Positions 1 through 7,310 of a stretch of DNA of 30,675 bases are shown here, in pieces. Under the pieces are notes generated by a model, which made no database searches, was not told the origin of the DNA, and was given only the letters and a program-made list of their open reading frames with translations. Both the position numbers and the translations under genes were made by a program. Origin of the DNA: Thermoflexales bacterium (GTDB taxonomy: Bacteria; Chloroflexota; Anaerolineae; Fen-1058); contig JAFGFO010000412.1 of assembly GCA_016931085.1 (NCBI GenBank), positions 1 to 30,675 on the forward strand, read 5' to 3'. Each line of letters opens with the position of its first letter. Position 1 is the stretch's first letter.

Positions 1-3000
1 ATTCTGAGCGACAACAAGTCCGGGCCGGGCGACACGGCCGAGCGCTATCACACCACGTTTACGGACAACGCCGTGGGCTGGCGGCACGTCAGCCTGCCCT
101 GGAACGCCTTCTACCGGGGCGGCTGGCAGCCGGACGGCGCGCCTGACGATGGCCTGAGCCTGACCGAGATGTGGGCCTATGCCATCGCCTTCCCCGATGG
201 CGCCAGCGGCACGATCTATATCGACGACGTGGCGCTCATGGGGGCTGGCCAGGTCGAGTTGAAGGCCGGGTTCGACAGCCAGCAGTACACGGTGAACGAG
301 GGCGAGCCGGCCACGCTGGCCGTCCAGCTCAACATGACGGCCACTTATCCCGTCACTGTGAGCTACGCCGTCACGAGCGGCACGGCCTTGGCCGGCCAGG
401 ACTTGACTGCCACGACGGGCCTGCTCGTCTTCCCGGCCGGCACGCTCTCGCGGACGATCGTGGTGCAGACCATCGACGACGACGAAATCGAGGACGACGA
501 GACCTTCGTGGTCAATCTATCGAACCCTGTCAGCGTCACGCTGGGCGCCAGGAGCCAGGCGACTGTGGTGATCAGGGCCAACGACCGCCCGGTCCAGCCG
601 TGCGGCGGCAAGGCGCTGATGGTGGACGACTTTGAGGACGGCCAACTGCCGCGCGGCCAAGACGCCAACGGCCTCGATATCGGCTACGTTGTCTTTGGCA
701 ATTTCCCGGCGGCCACGGTCGCCATCACGACGGCGCAGGTGGCTGTGGACGATTCCCTCGCGATACCTGGCCAACTCAAGCCTAACACGCTCCTGAAAGC
801 GGACTATAACGTGGTCGGCTGGGGCGGCTTTACGCACGCCTTTGCCAACGACGCGCTCGACACCTGGGTCAGCCAGGACTGGAGCATGTACGAGGGCTTG
901 AGCTTTTGGTTCTATGGCAGCAACAGCGGCGCCCAGATCCAGGTGGAAATCTTTGACAATCGCAGCCCCGGCTCCACCGCAGACGATGCCGAGCGTTGGT
1001 ACTATCGCTTTGCCGATAACTTTATCGGCTGGCGTTTCTTGGGCATCCCGTTTGCCGACTTTGCGCGCCGTACCGACTGGCAGCCAGCCGGCGCGCCGGC
1101 CGACGGCGTGCTGAACCTGACGGCAGTGTGGGGTTATGCTTTTAGCTTCCCGGCCGACGTGGGTGCCCGCACAAATTACGTGGACGACGTCAAGGTCGGC
1201 CCCATCGTCCGGCAGACTATCGTGGACGACTTTGAAAGCGGCCTGCCTTACGGGCGCGATGCCGACAACATGGAGCTTGGCTTCTTCACCTGGGGCGATC
1301 CTGGCTCGACGGTCACCTTCACGACCGCCTCTGTGACGCCGACCGGGCCGTTGGCCCTGCCCTGCCAGGCCGCGCCGAACACCGTCTTCCAGTTGGACAG
1401 CACGGTCGCGAGCTGGGGTGGCCTTACGCACCACCTCGAGAACGCCGCCGTGGACGCCTGGGCGCCTCAGGACTGGAGCACGTACGAGGGGATCGCCTTC
1501 TGGCTGTACGGGACGAACAGCGGCGTCAGCCTGTTCTTTGAAGTCCAGGACAATCGCAATCCCAATTCCACCAAGGACGACACCGAGATCTGGACTTTCC
1601 CCTTCCCCGACGACTTTAGTGGTTGGCGCTACGTCGAGATCCCGTTCAACAAGTTCACCCGCAAAGAGATCGGCAACGGCGCCCCTAACGACGGCTTTGG
1701 CCGCACCGAGGTGCACGGCTGGGCGTTTGGAACGCTGGCCACCGGCGGAGCGCAGAGGCGTTACCTGGACGACGTGACGCTTTATGGCTACAAGGTGGTG
1801 GATGTGCCGCTGGCGGTGAGCTTTGCCGCGATCGAGCACACGGTGGGCGAGGGCGGCACGGCCGCTATCACGGTCACGCTCAACAAAGCGCCCACCCAGA
1901 CCGTCACCGTGGATTACGCCACGAAGGACAGCCGGGCGACGCCTGGCCGGGACTATACCCCCGTGGCAGGCCGGCTGACGTTTGACGCCGGCGTGACCGA
2001 GCAGACCTTCTCTGTGACCACCCTCGAGGATAGCAAGGCCGAGGGGGACGAAAGGATCGCGCTGCTCCTGTCCAACCCGGTGGGCGCCGTGCTGGGCGCG
2101 CGGCTCAGGGCGGCCCTGACCATCCGGGATAACGACACGCCCGACCCGGCTATGCTGTTCGACGTCGAACAAGCCGGGGCGATGGCAGCCGATGGCCTGG
2201 TCACGCTCAACTTGGACGAGCTGCGGGCCGGCACGCCGATGGCCTTGCCAGGCCAGGGCGCTTACGAAAACGTGCTCAAGGCGAGCTACACAGGGCCGGG
2301 CCAGTTCGGCCGCACATTTGGCGCGCCGCAGGACTGGAGCGGCTACCAGGGCCTCAGCTTCTGGTACTATGGCTCGCGCAGCGGCAACACGGTCACGCTA
2401 GAAGTGGCGGATAACAAAACGAGCACCACGGCCGCTGTGGCCCCGCAGGACTGGCAGATCGTCTGGAGCGACGAGTTCGACGACCCGGCCGGCACGCCGC
2501 CCAACCCGGCCAACTGGACGCACGAAATCGGCGATGGTTTCCTGAACGAGGCCGCTTTCAACGGCTGGGGCAACGGCGAGTTCGAATACTATACCACCAG
2601 CACCGACAACGCCGCGACGGACGGCCAGGGCAGCCTGGTGATCACGGCCAAGCCGACGAACCCGGCCACGAACGACCTGGCCTGCTGGTACGGTATGTGC
2701 GATTACACCTCGGCTCGCCTGATCTCGGCTGGCAAGGCGGAATTCGCCTACGGCCGGGTGGAGGCTCGCCTCAAGCTGCCCTTTGGCCAGGGGCTGTGGC
2801 CAGCCTTCTGGATGCTGGGCAACGACATCGGCCAGGTCGGCTGGCCGCAGTCCGGCGAGATCGACGTCATGGAAAACATCGGCCGCGAGCCAACCATCGC
2901 GCACGGCACGATCCACGGGCCGGGCTACTCGGGCGGCAACGGCATCGGCGGCGGCTATACCCTGCCGGCCGGCACCGTCTCGAGCGACTTTCACACCTAC

Positions 3001-3864
3001 GCGGTCGATTGGACGCCCACCCACATCACCTGGACGGTGGACGGCAACACTTACTTTGTGGTCACGTCCACCCATCCCAGGATCTCTGACTGGGTCTTTG
3101 ACCATCCCTTCTACATCATCATGAACGTCGCGGTGGGCGGCACCTGGCCAGGTTCGCCCGATGCGAGCACGACTTTCCCACAGACGATGATGGTCGATTA
3201 CGTGCGCGTCTCCCAGGCCGTGGATACGGCCGAGGTGTTCGAGGCGAGCTTTACCGACGACTTTGAAGGCTGGCAGCAGGTCTTTATCCCCTTCTCCCAG
3301 TTCGCGCGGAGCGCCAACCAGGCCGCCGGCGCGCCCGACGATGGCCTTGGCCTGGACGAGGTCTGGGGCTTGCACTTCAAGGTCGGCAGCAGCGGCACGT
3401 TCTGGATGGACCAGGTCAAGCTGTCCAACGCCGCGCCCAGCCTGACGCTCGTGAAGGACGTGACGCCCACTTTGGACGTGGCGCCGGGCGGCCTCGTCAC
3501 CTACACTATCACCATCAGCAATGGCGGCGACAGCCCGGCCATCGGCGTGGTGATGAGCGACACGCTGCCGGCCCAGCTCACGTTCGACGCCTGGGTGCAG
3601 CAGGGTTCGGCGCTGCTGCCAGGCCCGTCTGGCAACACGATCGCGTGGGGGCCGTGGCCTGTGCCCGCTGGGCAGAGTTACACGCTTCGCTTTACCGCTG
3701 TTGTGACGGACGATGCCGGTTACTACCGGACCGCCGTCACCAACACGGCCCGCTTTGCCTCCACGAACGCCGGCAGCGGGGCCGACGACGCGGTCTTTAG
3801 CATCGGCGAGCCTCCCGCCAGGCGCTACGATATCTTCCTGCCGCTCGTGATGAAAAACTTCTAG
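1..3864 (+). CDS. Secreted multidomain GH16 beta-glucanase (laminarinase type), 5' end outside window
   Basis: The reading frame is open from base 1, so the N-terminus and any signal peptide lie upstream; the GTG at 73 is internal. Order of modules by base position: end of a CBM11/CIA30-like beta-sandwich (1-237), Calx-beta (about 268-591), CBM-like module (618-1203), CBM-like module (1216-1790), Calx-beta (about 1816-2145), left half of a fourth CBM-like module (2152-2440), GH16 catalytic domain (about 2443-3213), right half of that module (3220-3429), DUF11-type module (3430-3795), and a terminal tail YDIFLPLVMKNF. The GH16 catalytic signature E-I-D-V-M-E is at 2857-2874, with nucleophile and acid/base at its two glutamates by family knowledge. 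It should hydrolyse beta-1,3- or mixed-linkage glucan outside the cell; laminarin is inferred from motif and neighbours. The modules suggest substrate binding and display at the cell surface. Confidence 0.9.
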   Translation: MLSDNKSGPGDTAERYHTTFTDNAVGWRHVSLPWNAFYRGGWQPDGAPDDGLSLTEMWAYAIAFPDGASGTIYIDDVALMGAGQVELKAGFDSQQYTVNEGEPATLAVQLNMTATYPVTVSYAVTSGTALAGQDLTATTGLLVFPAGTLSRTIVVQTIDDDEIEDDETFVVNLSNPVSVTLGARSQATVVIRANDRPVQPCGGKALMVDDFEDGQLPRGQDANGLDIGYVVFGNFPAATVAITTAQVAVDDSLAIPGQLKPNTLLKADYNVVGWGGFTHAFANDALDTWVSQDWSMYEGLSFWFYGSNSGAQIQVEIFDNRSPGSTADDAERWYYRFADNFIGWRFLGIPFADFARRTDWQPAGAPADGVLNLTAVWGYAFSFPADVGARTNYVDDVKVGPIVRQTIVDDFESGLPYGRDADNMELGFFTWGDPGSTVTFTTASVTPTGPLALPCQAAPNTVFQLDSTVASWGGLTHHLENAAVDAWAPQDWSTYEGIAFWLYGTNSGVSLFFEVQDNRNPNSTKDDTEIWTFPFPDDFSGWRYVEIPFNKFTRKEIGNGAPNDGFGRTEVHGWAFGTLATGGAQRRYLDDVTLYGYKVVDVPLAVSFAAIEHTVGEGGTAAITVTLNKAPTQTVTVDYATKDSRATPGRDYTPVAGRLTFDAGVTEQTFSVTTLEDSKAEGDERIALLLSNPVGAVLGARLRAALTIRDNDTPDPAMLFDVEQAGAMAADGLVTLNLDELRAGTPMALPGQGAYENVLKASYTGPGQFGRTFGAPQDWSGYQGLSFWYYGSRSGNTVTLEVADNKTSTTAAVAPQDWQIVWSDEFDDPAGTPPNPANWTHEIGDGFLNEAAFNGWGNGEFEYYTTSTDNAATDGQGSLVITAKPTNPATNDLACWYGMCDYTSARLISAGKAEFAYGRVEARLKLPFGQGLWPAFWMLGNDIGQVGWPQSGEIDVMENIGREPTIAHGTIHGPGYSGGNGIGGGYTLPAGTVSSDFHTYAVDWTPTHITWTVDGNTYFVVTSTHPRISDWVFDHPFYIIMNVAVGGTWPGSPDASTTFPQTMMVDYVRVSQAVDTAEVFEASFTDDFEGWQQVFIPFSQFARSANQAAGAPDDGLGLDEVWGLHFKVGSSGTFWMDQVKLSNAAPSLTLVKDVTPTLDVAPGGLVTYTITISNGGDSPAIGVVMSDTLPAQLTFDAWVQQGSALLPGPSGNTIAWGPWPVPAGQSYTLRFTAVVTDDAGYYRTAVTNTARFASTNAGSGADDAVFSIGEPPARRYDIFLPLVMKNF

Positions 3865-3921: not shown

Positions 3922-3983
3922 GAGACCAGCCCCTAAAGGTCTTGGGCTATAAGAATAGCCTTAAACCTTTAGGGTCTGGTCTC
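3922..3983. repeat. Long imperfect palindrome (dispersed-element candidate)
   Basis: Arms of 19 bases at 3922-3940 (GAGACCAGCCCCTAAAGGT) and 3965-3983 are complementary with one mismatch. Inside, GGCTA/TAGCC forms a second stem around the loop TAAGAA (3945-3960). The core GGGCTAT-N4-ATAGCCTT (3944-3962) recurs at 26209-26227. The element lies between the GH16 terminator hairpin and the promoter at 4008. Confidence 0.8.
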
Positions 3984-4007
3984 AAACACCCGCGCGCGTT
4001 TTCACTC

Positions 4008-4036
4008 TTGGCATTTTGGCGTTTTTGCGTTACAAT
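4008..4036 (+). promoter_or_regulatory. Sigma70-type promoter for the phosphorylase genes
   Basis: TTGGCA (4008-4013), 17-base spacer, TACAAT (4031-4036). Each box differs from consensus at one position and the spacing is ideal. Transcription would start near 4043, giving a short leader that carries AGGAG (4050-4054) just before the ATG at 4059. The same transcript could continue through GH94, GH3 and GH1, as no other strong promoter is visible between them. Confidence 0.75.
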
Positions 4037-4058
4037 CATGCAGATGTCTAGGAGTTCT

Positions 4059-7000
4059 ATGCCAGATTCACCCTTCGATGCAAGCGGCCGCTTTGTCATT
4101 CCAGGCTATGCGGCTGCCCGCCCCTTCGCCAGTTTTTTGCCCGGCATCGCCGGCCCCAACGGCATCCCCATGTGGGTCCTGTACGTCAACCGCGGCCAGG
4201 CCGTGGCCAGCTTTGGCATCCAAGACAAAGACAGCCCCGTGATAGAGTTCCAGCCGGCCAATAAGGCGTACATGCAGACGCCCTATACTGGCTTCCGAAC
4301 TTTTATCAAGCTGGCCCGCGGCGGCCAGCACTGCTTCTACGAGCCATTTTCTCCCTGGCAGCGTCCCGCCTCGGCGCGCCAGCACATGGCCATCGGGATG
4401 AACGAGCTCGAGCTGCAAGAGACCGACCCCGGCCGTGGCCTGCAGGTGAACGTCCTGTATTTCACGCTGCCCGGCGAAGACATCGCCGCCCTCGTGCGCA
4501 GCGTCAGGCTGAAAAACATCGCCCAGGAGCCGCTCGAGCTGGAACTGCTGGATGGCTTGCCGGCGGTGATCCCCTACGGCGTGACGAACGAACAGCTCAA
4601 GGCGATCGGCCGCACCATCGAGGCCTGGATGGAGGTCGTCAACTGGGAGAGCCACGTGCCCTTTTACCGCCTACCGACCAGGGCCGCCGACGTGGCCCAG
4701 GTTGAGGCCGTCCAGGCCGGCCACTTTGCGCTGTCCTTCACCACTTGCCAGGGCCAATCCCAATTGCTGCCCGTTTTGGTCGACCCCACCGTCGTCTTCG
4801 GGCCGAACACCGCCCTGAGCGCGCCGGACAACTTCCTCGCCCGCCCGCTGGCCGAGCTGCTGGCCAGCCGCCAGATCGCGGTCGGCCGGACGCCGTGTGG
4901 CTTTTTCGCTGCCTCCGCCAGCCTGGCTCCCTCCGAGGAGATCGCGCTGGTCACCGTCGTCGGCCACAGCGGCAGCCTTCAACACCTGGCGCGGCGTTAC
5001 GAGCGGCTGCTCAGCCCGGCCTATATCGACGCCAAGCGGCGCGAGGGGAACGAGCTGATCCGGCAACTGACGGACGTGGTGGTCACCCACACGAGCTCGC
5101 CCACCTTCGACGCCTACTGCCGCCAAACGTTTCTGGACAACGTGATGCGCGGCGGCTGGCCGCTGCTGCTGGGAGATGCGAAGCACCCGTTGGTGTATCA
5201 CGTCTACTCCCGTAAGCACGGCGACCTGGAGCGCGATTACAACAACTTTTTCCTGGCCGCCGAGTACTATTCGCAGGGCAACGGGAACTATCGCGACGTC
5301 AACCAGAACCGCCGCTGTGACGTCCTGCTCAACCCCGGCGTGGGAGACTATAACGTGCGGGCCTTTGTCAGCCTGCTGCAGGCCGACGGCTATAACCCAC
5401 TGGTGGTGCTCGGCAGCCAGTTGACGCTGCCGGCCGAGGCGCGCGCCGCCGTGCTGGCGCAGGTGGCACAGCCCGAACATCTGGAACCCGCCCTTTCCCA
5501 CCCGTTTACGCCCGGCAGCCTGCTCAAGTACATCGACGATCGCCAGCTCGCGCTGCGCGTGTCGAGGGACGAATTCCTGCGACTCGCGCTCAAGGACGCC
5601 GAGCAGCACTTTGAAGCCGAATTCGGCGAGGGCTATTGGATAGACCACTGGACGTACATTATGGACATGGTCGAGACCTTCCTGGCCGTTTACCCCGAGC
5701 GCCAGGACGAGCTGTTGTTTGGAGATCCGAGCCTGCCCTTCTTTGACAGCCCGGCCGTCGTGCGCCGGCGGAGCCACAAGTACGTTCTGGCCGGCGGCCG
5801 GGGACGCCAGGTCGACGCCGTGGTCGAGGACGAGGAAAAAGCGACCCTGATCGCCCGCCGCTCCGAGCTGCCCAAGCTGGTGCGCGTGGAGAACGGGCTG
5901 GGCGCCGTCTACCGCACCAGCCTGTTTGCCAAGCTGCTGAGCCTGGCGCTGCTCAAGTTCGCGACGATGGACCCGGCGGGGATGGGGATCGAAATGGAGG
6001 CCAACAAGCCCGGCTGGTGCGATGCCATGAACGGGCTGCCGAGCCTGTTCGGATCGTCGCTGCCCGAAAGCTACGAGCTCGTGCGGCTGCTGGCGTTTTT
6101 GCGCTCAGCCATCCAAGACAAGGTCAACTATAGACTCGATTGGCCGGTGGAGTTGTGCCGCCTGCTGCGGCGCGTCGTCGAGCAGGTGAAGGCTTACAAT
6201 CACTCGGCCGCCCCCGAGCGCGATTGGGTGTATTGGGACGCCGTGGCCAGCGCGCGCGAGGACTACCGTGACAGCATACGCCTGGGATTTGGCGGCGAAA
6301 CGCAGCCTCTCGATAGGGCCGAGCTGGCCGAATTCCTGGGCCTGGCTTTGGCCAAGGTGCAGGCGGGGCTCGAGCGGGCGGCCGGCCTGAGCGACGGCGT
6401 GCCCCCGACCTACTTTTCTTACCAGGTCGAGGATTATGAACCTGTCCTGGCTGCGGACGGAACCCCTCGGCACGACGCCCAGGGGCGGCCGCATATCCGC
6501 CCCCTGCGTTTCAAGCCGGCCGCCCTACCGCTCTACCTGGAGGGACCGGCGCGGGCGCTCAAGGTGCAGACGGACCAGGCCGCCGCGCGCCGCCTGTACG
6601 AGCAGGTCAAGGCCAGCCCGCTGTTCGACCGCAAGCTGGGCATGTACCGGCTGAACGCCTCGCTGGCCGGCCAGCCGCACGACATCGGCCGGGCGCGCGC
6701 CTTTACGCCCGGTTGGCTGGAAAACGAATCGATCTGGCTGCACATGGAGTACAAGTACATGCTGGCCGTGCTCCAGGCCGGGCTGTACGACGAGTTCTTC
6801 CAGGATTTCAAAACGGCCCTGATCCCCTTCCAGGACCCGGCCGTCTACGGGCGCAGCCCGCTGGAGAACTCGTCCTTCCTCGTCAGCAGCGCCCATCCGG
6901 ACGAGTCGCTCCACGGGGCCGGCTTTGTCGCGCGCCTCAGCGGCTCCACGGCCGAGTTCCTGAGCATGTGGACGACCATGATGGCCGGCCCCAAGCCCTT

Positions 7001-7310
7001 CCGGGTGCAGGACGGGCAATTGTGCCTGGCGCTCAAGCCCGCCCTGCCGGCATGGCTGTTTGACGCGGAGGGGACGATCGCTTTCCGTTTCCTGGGAAGC
7101 TGCACCGTCAGCTATCATAACCCGGACAGGCTGGACACGTTCAGGAAGGGTGTCCGCCTGGGCAAGTTGACCCTCCACACCAGGGCCGGCCAGACCGTCG
7201 AGTATGCCGGCGGCCTGATCCGGGCGCCGCACGCCGCCATGGTGCGCCAGGGCGAGGTAGATACGATCCATGTCAGCGTAGAATGCGGCACGTTGGGATC
7301 TTGGACCTGA
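4059..7310 (+). CDS. Large inverting beta-glucan/oligoglucan phosphorylase (GH94/GH149/GH161 superfamily)
   Basis: The predicted 1083-aa protein has no signal peptide and should act in the cytoplasm, splitting a beta-glucan oligomer with phosphate to give glucose-1-phosphate. It begins with a conserved block containing SFLPGIAGPNGIPMW and YVNRGQ (N-terminal beta-sandwich) and ends in an (alpha/alpha)6-barrel. Asp529 in YWIDHWTY is the candidate general acid. ENESIWLHM (from residue 888) and LSGSTAE (960-966) occupy the places of the phosphate-site motifs ENGAxFxH and TGSASW of ordinary GH94 enzymes. The length of nearly 1100 residues fits GH149/GH161 beta-1,3-glucan phosphorylases or the SOGP branch rather than cellobiose phosphorylase (about 800). 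Beta-1,3 specificity is inferred from the GH16 neighbour. Start 4059 was chosen because AGGAG at 4050-4054 precedes it; the frame is open back to 3942, but that start would lie upstream of the promoter. Confidence 0.85.
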   Translation: MPDSPFDASGRFVIPGYAAARPFASFLPGIAGPNGIPMWVLYVNRGQAVASFGIQDKDSPVIEFQPANKAYMQTPYTGFRTFIKLARGGQHCFYEPFSPWQRPASARQHMAIGMNELELQETDPGRGLQVNVLYFTLPGEDIAALVRSVRLKNIAQEPLELELLDGLPAVIPYGVTNEQLKAIGRTIEAWMEVVNWESHVPFYRLPTRAADVAQVEAVQAGHFALSFTTCQGQSQLLPVLVDPTVVFGPNTALSAPDNFLARPLAELLASRQIAVGRTPCGFFAASASLAPSEEIALVTVVGHSGSLQHLARRYERLLSPAYIDAKRREGNELIRQLTDVVVTHTSSPTFDAYCRQTFLDNVMRGGWPLLLGDAKHPLVYHVYSRKHGDLERDYNNFFLAAEYYSQGNGNYRDVNQNRRCDVLLNPGVGDYNVRAFVSLLQADGYNPLVVLGSQLTLPAEARAAVLAQVAQPEHLEPALSHPFTPGSLLKYIDDRQLALRVSRDEFLRLALKDAEQHFEAEFGEGYWIDHWTYIMDMVETFLAVYPERQDELLFGDPSLPFFDSPAVVRRRSHKYVLAGGRGRQVDAVVEDEEKATLIARRSELPKLVRVENGLGAVYRTSLFAKLLSLALLKFATMDPAGMGIEMEANKPGWCDAMNGLPSLFGSSLPESYELVRLLAFLRSAIQDKVNYRLDWPVELCRLLRRVVEQVKAYNHSAAPERDWVYWDAVASAREDYRDSIRLGFGGETQPLDRAELAEFLGLALAKVQAGLERAAGLSDGVPPTYFSYQVEDYEPVLAADGTPRHDAQGRPHIRPLRFKPAALPLYLEGPARALKVQTDQAAARRLYEQVKASPLFDRKLGMYRLNASLAGQPHDIGRARAFTPGWLENESIWLHMEYKYMLAVLQAGLYDEFFQDFKTALIPFQDPAVYGRSPLENSSFLVSSAHPDESLHGAGFVARLSGSTAEFLSMWTTMMAGPKPFRVQDGQLCLALKPALPAWLFDAEGTIAFRFLGSCTVSYHNPDRLDTFRKGVRLGKLTLHTRAGQTVEYAGGLIRAPHAAMVRQGEVDTIHVSVECGTLGSWT

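Follow-up and report, generated by a model that had tools for sequence, protein, structure and literature searches.

Sequence and modelling evidence for a GH16 catalytic domain nested in a CBM11-type module of a multimodular protein from a Thermoflexales bacterium

Results

A CBM11 module in two halves around a GH16 domain

The stretch studied here (30,675 nucleotides of contig JAFGFO010000412.1, assembly GCA_016931085.1, from Thermoflexales bacterium; hereafter the window) begins within an open frame. Its 1287-residue product combines carbohydrate-binding modules (CBM) of family CBM11, Calx-beta domains, a nested unit of CBM11 and glycoside hydrolase (GH) family GH16, a DUF11 domain, and a C-terminal tail of the LPLV type (Table 1). 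Pfam placed five CBM_11 stretches in the protein. A flat domain list (CBM11 plus GH16) conceals the nesting. The first-pass annotation had proposed that the fourth CBM11-type module is split by a complete GH16 domain, and this was borne out: two CBM_11 stretches flank GH16, and the flanks together make up one profile. Over positions 2152-3429, Pfam CBM_11 (PF03425) scored 69.1 bits in two stretches (cut-off 27), the better of which comprised fragment residues 357-424 (profile positions 108-179), and the GH16 match lay between them (fragment residues 147-351). The peptide LEVADNKTS, named earlier as the end of the first half, stops at residue 808 (nt 2424), FEASFTDDFEGWQQVFIPFSQF follows the GH16 domain, and the equivalents FEVQDNRNPNS and WTFPFPDDFSGWRYVEIPFNKF of the third module were both found in the protein. 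The junctions span residues 804-818 on the left (DNKTS-TTAAVAPQDW) and 1073-1076 on the right.

A search returned 3501 proteins, the best 120 of which were examined; counts out of 120 include the window's own protein. All 120 were nested (119 relatives and the window's own), with the site and both halves kept (relatives at 49-63% identity). A profile built from intact modules (a sample of 150 from the 375 in these proteins) matched the nested proteins in two pieces. Coverage of its 172 positions was computed for 140 sequences picked as nested (the 120 and 20 loci). The N-half covered positions 89-100 at 93-100% and was gone by 106; the C-half covered 0-2% before position 103 and, over the range printed, at least 94% at 104-125. 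The break thus costs the module little or none of its length, and on these alignments the GH16 domain is nested within a CBM11 module.

The insert itself matched Pfam PF00722 with 101.3 bits (cut-off 22), and solved GH16 chains set its extent at about fragment residues 102-355. The catalytic E, D, and E of EIDVME were conserved in all 120 aligned rows, and by sequence the catalytic residues are intact. For the laminarinase subfamily GH16_3, the accessible part of the subfamily paper gives the pattern WPA ... WXX ... WPX (PMC6827312); the window domain has WPA, WML, and WPQ, the Q being outside the third-motif letters listed there. Laminarinases and beta-1,3-glucanases of known structure (2hyk, 3atg, 3azx of Thermotoga maritima, and 2vy0 of Pyrococcus furiosus) share the catalytic domain and its fold. 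These chains cover GH16 only, and none among the matches shown aligned to the whole host.

Table 1. Features of the nested CBM11/GH16 gene in the window
Feature	Position	Strand	Remarks	Basis
Whole frame	1..3864	+	frame +1, open, 1287 aa, 5' end beyond window	translation, Pfam
First CBM11 module, C-terminal part	1..237	+	cut by window edge	by sequence
Second CBM11 module, intact	589..1191	+	residues 197-397	best CBM_11 stretch of protein
Third CBM11 module, intact	1198..1797	+	comparator in the first-pass annotation	profile comparison
Host CBM11 N-half	2152..2424	+	residues 718-808; last letters DNKTS	sequence, model, profile
CCGCAGGACTGG, copy 1	2326..2337	+	PQDW of conserved CBM11 QDWS motif	
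Left junction linker TTAAVAPQDW	2425..2454	+	residues 809-818; contains second 12-base copy	
CCGCAGGACTGG, copy 2	2443..2454	+	left junction; judged chance	
Inserted GH16 domain, laminarinase type	2455..3216	+	residues 819-1072	Pfam, solved chains
Catalytic motif EIDVME	2857..2874	+	residues 953-958	
Right junction, short	3217..3225	+	residues 1073-1075	
Host CBM11 C-half	3226..3429	+	residues 1076-1143; first letters TAEVFEASF	Pfam, model, profile

Predicted fold and covariation

AlphaFold2 modelled the 426-residue fragment encoded by 2152-3429 as one body with a mean predicted local distance difference test score (pLDDT) of 89.9 and a predicted template modelling score (pTM) of 0.87. The sole segment with pLDDT below 50 was 131-138, within GH16. 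The prediction is thus a confident single body, whose scores give no sign of flanks that fail to form one sandwich. As a natural control we modelled a tandem protein from Chloroflexota, L044, in which an intact CBM11 is followed by GH16. Both domains folded (mean pLDDT 86.6, pTM 0.57), and linker residues 193-215 were below 50 pLDDT. The contrast in pTM agrees with rigidity of the nested form and flexibility of the tandem one; it is suggestive and not proof, because few control rows span both domains. The earlier idea that placement in the loop fixes the active site relative to the glucan chain therefore stands only as a predicted orientation relative to the host (pTM 0.87 vs 0.57).

For covariation, the nested regions of the 120 proteins were aligned (effective number about 42) and couplings of z > 4 taken as strong. 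Strong couplings joined 11 of the 5280 pairs that link the two halves; for GH16 paired with the N-half the count was 6 of 19840, and with the C-half 3 of 16367, so that the rate between the halves was about 7 times that between N-half and GH16. Within domains, there were 11 of 2775 (N-half), 49 of 29427 (GH16), and 4 of 1830 (C-half). All regions have the same ancestry, so shared descent by itself does not account for the contrast. Between the nested modules and 422 intact ones, inter-half couplings were correlated (rho 0.35), perhaps partly owing to column variability common to both sets.

Distribution among genomes

One genome per species was scanned and the best 80 loci kept, making the counts lower bounds. 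They comprised 8 nested loci (L001-L008) and 2 natural tandem counterparts in which GH16 comes after an intact CBM11 (L044:8358-9743 and L048:2736-4121); the rest had no CBM11 match in the GH16 frame. The nested arrangement is not limited to metagenome assemblies, as L007 (8634-9878) comes from a named strain, Agromyces bracchium JCM 11433.

Within phyla, nesting was found in at least 7 of 400 sampled Chloroflexota genomes (E ≤ 1e-30; 48 genomes matched, loci read at 30 places and the remainder judged by query range) and in at least 6 of 396 Actinomycetota genomes (E ≤ 1e-70; all 18 places read). Both counts include the centre genome, for Chloroflexota one already known to be nested, and both are lower bounds because at most 4 candidates per genome were scored. 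The phylum of L030, an Acidobacteria metagenome-assembled genome, gave 1 of 237 (E ≤ 1e-50; 4 places read, others by query range); resting on one genome, this case could be a binning error. No match to both flanks was found at E ≤ 1e-50 in the phyla of L056 (Bacteroidota, 238 genomes), L054 (Bacillota, 239), and L038 (Burkholderiales, 239), with 4, 4, and 2 places read, the others judged by query range, and a few unread Bacteroidota places extending past GH16 on the C-side. Nor was one found at E ≤ 1e-80, by query range alone, in those of L040 (Gemmatimonadetes, 111) and L041 (Methylacidimicrobium, 106).

Origin of the arrangement

A tree of host modules was built from 45 rows sampled from the 140 nested modules and 72 sampled from the 422 intact modules of the same or related proteins, excluding columns 96-110 and flagging three long rows. 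The 45 nested hosts fell on one side of a branch with support 100/100, which is consistent with a single origin. The GH16 tree (108 sampled rows: 45 nested, 2 tandem, and 61 without CBM11) was less clean, as six non-nested rows (L032, L045, L066, L088, L089, and L090) stood among the nested ones. Read by eye for a hidden, divergent host, these six had other binding domains or none that was recognised. After the long or odd rows L066, L096, L105, L108, and L128 were dropped, one set contained the 45 nested and 6 non-nested rows (95/81), another row having taken the place of L066. An approximately unbiased (AU) test of nested GH16 as one clade was borderline (p 0.0501, log-likelihood 62.4 lower). 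The GH16 domains of the tandem proteins L044 and L048 were placed outside the nested group. The inserts are therefore nearly, not strictly, one group, and the intermingled rows together with the borderline test leave room for guest exchange or later release. We infer, as the simplest account, a single insertion into one CBM11 lineage, followed by spread inside phyla and from one to another; a few GH16 domains would later have been freed or exchanged.

The 12-base repeat at the left junction

The first-pass annotation had also taken a 12-base repeat, CCGCAGGACTGG, as a possible trace of recombination. The sequence does occur at both places given for it, and exactly twice, where dinucleotide-shuffled versions of the window give an expectation of 0.01. 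Each copy encodes PQDW, which the protein contains three times, and identical codons for two PQDW have a probability of 0.13 under the codon usage of seven window frames. The gene contains 15 distinct repeated 12-mers, compared with 8.4 ± 4.5 (range 0-24) in 200 synonymous shuffles. Given these figures the repeat is unremarkable and best explained by chance.

Had the founding event left a trace, most relatives should show it. The junction columns of the 120 aligned rows instead read GPSGW (13), GPAGW (9), DPAEW (5), and others; APQDW occurred in 1 row, the window's own, and Q at that position in 3. The linkers were of a longer TTAxV type in 74 rows, a shorter DPGP type in 43, and other in 3. 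With the trace missing from relatives and with shuffles and codon usage accounting for the repeat, recombination at this site lacks support and was set aside as unneeded, although the junction of one relative, L001, reads PPQDW.

The host cleft and residue conservation

The solved relative of the host is CtCBM11 of Clostridium thermocellum endoglucanase H (1v0a, 2lro), which is contiguous, whereas the window host is split. The intact-module profile assigned both to the same family (E 1e-8); the third module of the window protein matched 1v0a weakly alone (E 0.03) and clearly within profile A2 (E 1e-8). Counted on the printed alignment, the insertion point aligns to the 1v0a stretch SINGVGDGE, a few residues ahead of Asp99. 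The CtCBM11 ligand cleft is presumably lined by Asp99, Tyr22, Tyr53, Arg126, Asp128, Tyr129, Asp146, and Tyr152. If this list is right, GH16 sits at the rim of the host cleft.

The host N-half has diverged from the intact modules. Aligned by eye, the position of Arg126 is S in 87% of nested hosts; in intact modules K is commonest (53%). Residues E107, R108, and F109 on the junction side are conserved at 95-96% in nested hosts versus 77%, 70%, and 34% in intact modules. The motifs QDWS, FW.YG, GW, F.R, and GAP.DG are about equally conserved in both.

Second inserts, fusions, and neighbouring genes

The N-half is itself interrupted in 4 of 20 distinct nested loci, at about N-half profile positions 45-51. 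These comprise (i) the actinobacterial L116:1501-3345 (-), with three S-layer homology repeats (107.2 bits) besides GH16; (ii) L113:1150-2751 (-) and (iii) L115:1051-2655 (+), with a short RGNG-type stretch; and (iv) L004:1517-3250 (+), with about 150 residues that look helical by eye. The inserts of L004, L113, and L115 had no Pfam match at E ≤ 0.01. Among the 120 listed proteins, no aligned row had an N-half insert of 15 or more residues relative to the window. The C-terminal tail of the window protein (3820-3861) ends IFLPLVMKNF, and by a simple pattern 62 of the 120 have a similar LPLV-type end; perhaps this is a sorting or anchoring signal. Fusions of GH3 beta-glucosidase type were noted in the nested homologs P0017, P0063, and P0079 and, by precomputed domains, in P0021 and P0085. 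These fusions place endo- and exo-type domains within a single chain.

Downstream on the same strand follow genes for a GH149-like protein, a GH94-type protein (80.6 bits against a cut-off of 27), a PA14-containing GH3 protein, and a beta-glucosidase of family GH1 (586.1 bits against 478.5). The first of these (window 3942-7310, 1122 aa) matched GH149 beta-1,3-glucan phosphorylase in part (84.7 bits, equivalog cut-off 1150) and had no Pfam match at E ≤ 0.001; its product is possibly of a divergent phosphorylase family. The neighbours suggest that oligosaccharides of beta-glucan are used, through phosphorolysis or hydrolysis. When six neighbours were sought in L001-L008, L044, and L048, the sole match was GH3 in the tandem L044.

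Discussion

It is likely, in our view, that the gene encodes a secreted multimodular glucanase whose GH16 domain sits whole in a loop of a two-half CBM11 sandwich, in a fixed orientation beside the cleft. The product would be a putative endo-beta-1,3(4)-glucanase in which GH16 has apparently entered one loop of the beta-sandwich entire and the two host halves pair across it. With the host built from two halves, two short connections, not a single flexible linker, would hold GH16. The arrangement probably had a single origin and was then kept. Most likely, the intact CBM11 modules would bind beta-glucan, and the nested host, predicted as one folded body with a rigidly oriented guest, would present GH16 next to its own cleft, so that a glucan chain, bound or close by, could be fed to the active site. 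The oligosaccharides released may then be used by the enzymes of the adjacent genes (phosphorylase-like, GH3, and GH1). Secretion (the N-terminus lies beyond the window), the substrate, glucan binding by any module, and chain feeding we infer.

Several observations pull the other way. Strand pairing between the host halves is deduced from model confidence and covariation, not seen directly. The top inter-half couplings cluster on few columns (model residues 43, 410, and 425), and over all pairs the excess of inter-half over GH16/C-half coupling is small (p 0.003, the pairs not being independent). The alignment of the tandem control has 39 rows, 2 of them spanning both domains, which lowers pTM by itself. 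Foldseek and VIA-align searches of the PDB and a viral library were dominated by GH16 or unspecific rows and did not place the host; CBM11 was absent from the 50 matches listed per search, which is uninformative either way. None of the six neighbour proteins was found at E ≤ 1e-5 in the nested loci L001-L008, some of which are short, so that the gene context offers local support only. The presumed CtCBM11 ligand positions, mapped by eye, are mostly changed in nested hosts, the Tyr53 position being aromatic, and the WGG stretch seen in intact modules is missing from them (W58 84% and G60 97% in the intact profile).

These last changes, with the S at the Arg126-aligned position, would also be expected if the host were a structural clamp that had lost sugar binding and merely stabilised or presented GH16, leaving any glucan binding to the intact copies. 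The raised conservation of E107, R108, and F109 beside the junction suits such a structural seat, whereas the five motifs, about equally well conserved in nested and intact modules, speak against it; we give this explanation a sizeable minority chance. A neutral insertion, tolerated since the GH16 ends lie close together and bringing no advantage over a tethered enzyme, seems rather unlikely to us. The six non-nested rows in the GH16 tree agree with it, as the insert may at times have been released. In the reverse case, deletion of an internal CBM112 from a GH26 enzyme left kinetic parameters unchanged (PMC13357471), a result that also counts against the main reading. Neutrality fits poorly with a site and halves kept in every listed protein at the identities given above, and with tandem CBM11-GH16 being confined, among the loci read, to L044 and L048, whose GH16 lies outside the nested group. 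It is highly improbable that recombination left behind two unrelated CBM-like fragments as the flanks: the junction repeat, the PQDW at the L001 junction, and the diverged N-half could be read in that way, but the halves jointly cover the profile, covary beyond the level of flank and insert, form one clade, and are both modelled with high confidence.

Beyond the likely reading of a glucanase held in a two-half sandwich, we put forward only tentatively that the nested-host CBM11 is a distinct subfamily turned socket scaffold. GH16 would occupy one loop and a second loop would take another domain, such as the S-layer repeats of L116, so that one sandwich could both anchor to the envelope and set the angle of the catalyst.

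Nesting of binding module and glycoside hydrolase is known in the opposite polarity. As described in the accessible parts of the reports, two CBM4 are inserted in a GH10 enzyme (PMC7848910), CBM58 in the GH13 enzyme SusG (as told in PMC7848910), CBM4 in the GH148 enzyme EngU (PMC5725463), and CBM112 in GH26 (PMC13357471). In all of these the enzyme is split and the CBM inserted, whereas here GH16 is continuous and CBM11 is split. The split CBM20 of Toxoplasma laforin is likewise built from separated halves and reported to bind carbohydrate, but its inserts are low-confidence model regions and not a catalytic domain, according to the available excerpts (PMC9254107). CE20 esterases resemble the present case in placing an inserted beta-sandwich over the catalytic domain and differ in that the enzyme is the host (PMC12313940, seen in excerpt). 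A literature search, with most subscription journals outside its coverage, turned up no paper describing a CBM that hosts a glycoside hydrolase, and the word "inserted" does not occur in the accessible portion of the GH16 subfamily paper (PMC6827312). The 2026 study of the reverse case calls the reason for nesting a binding module and an enzyme poorly understood, in the portion available (PMC13357471). The proteins described here form a large, conserved natural family of opposite polarity to those nested enzymes, and the natural tandem comparators L044 and L048 from the same phylum make fixed versus tethered catalysis testable with matched constructs.

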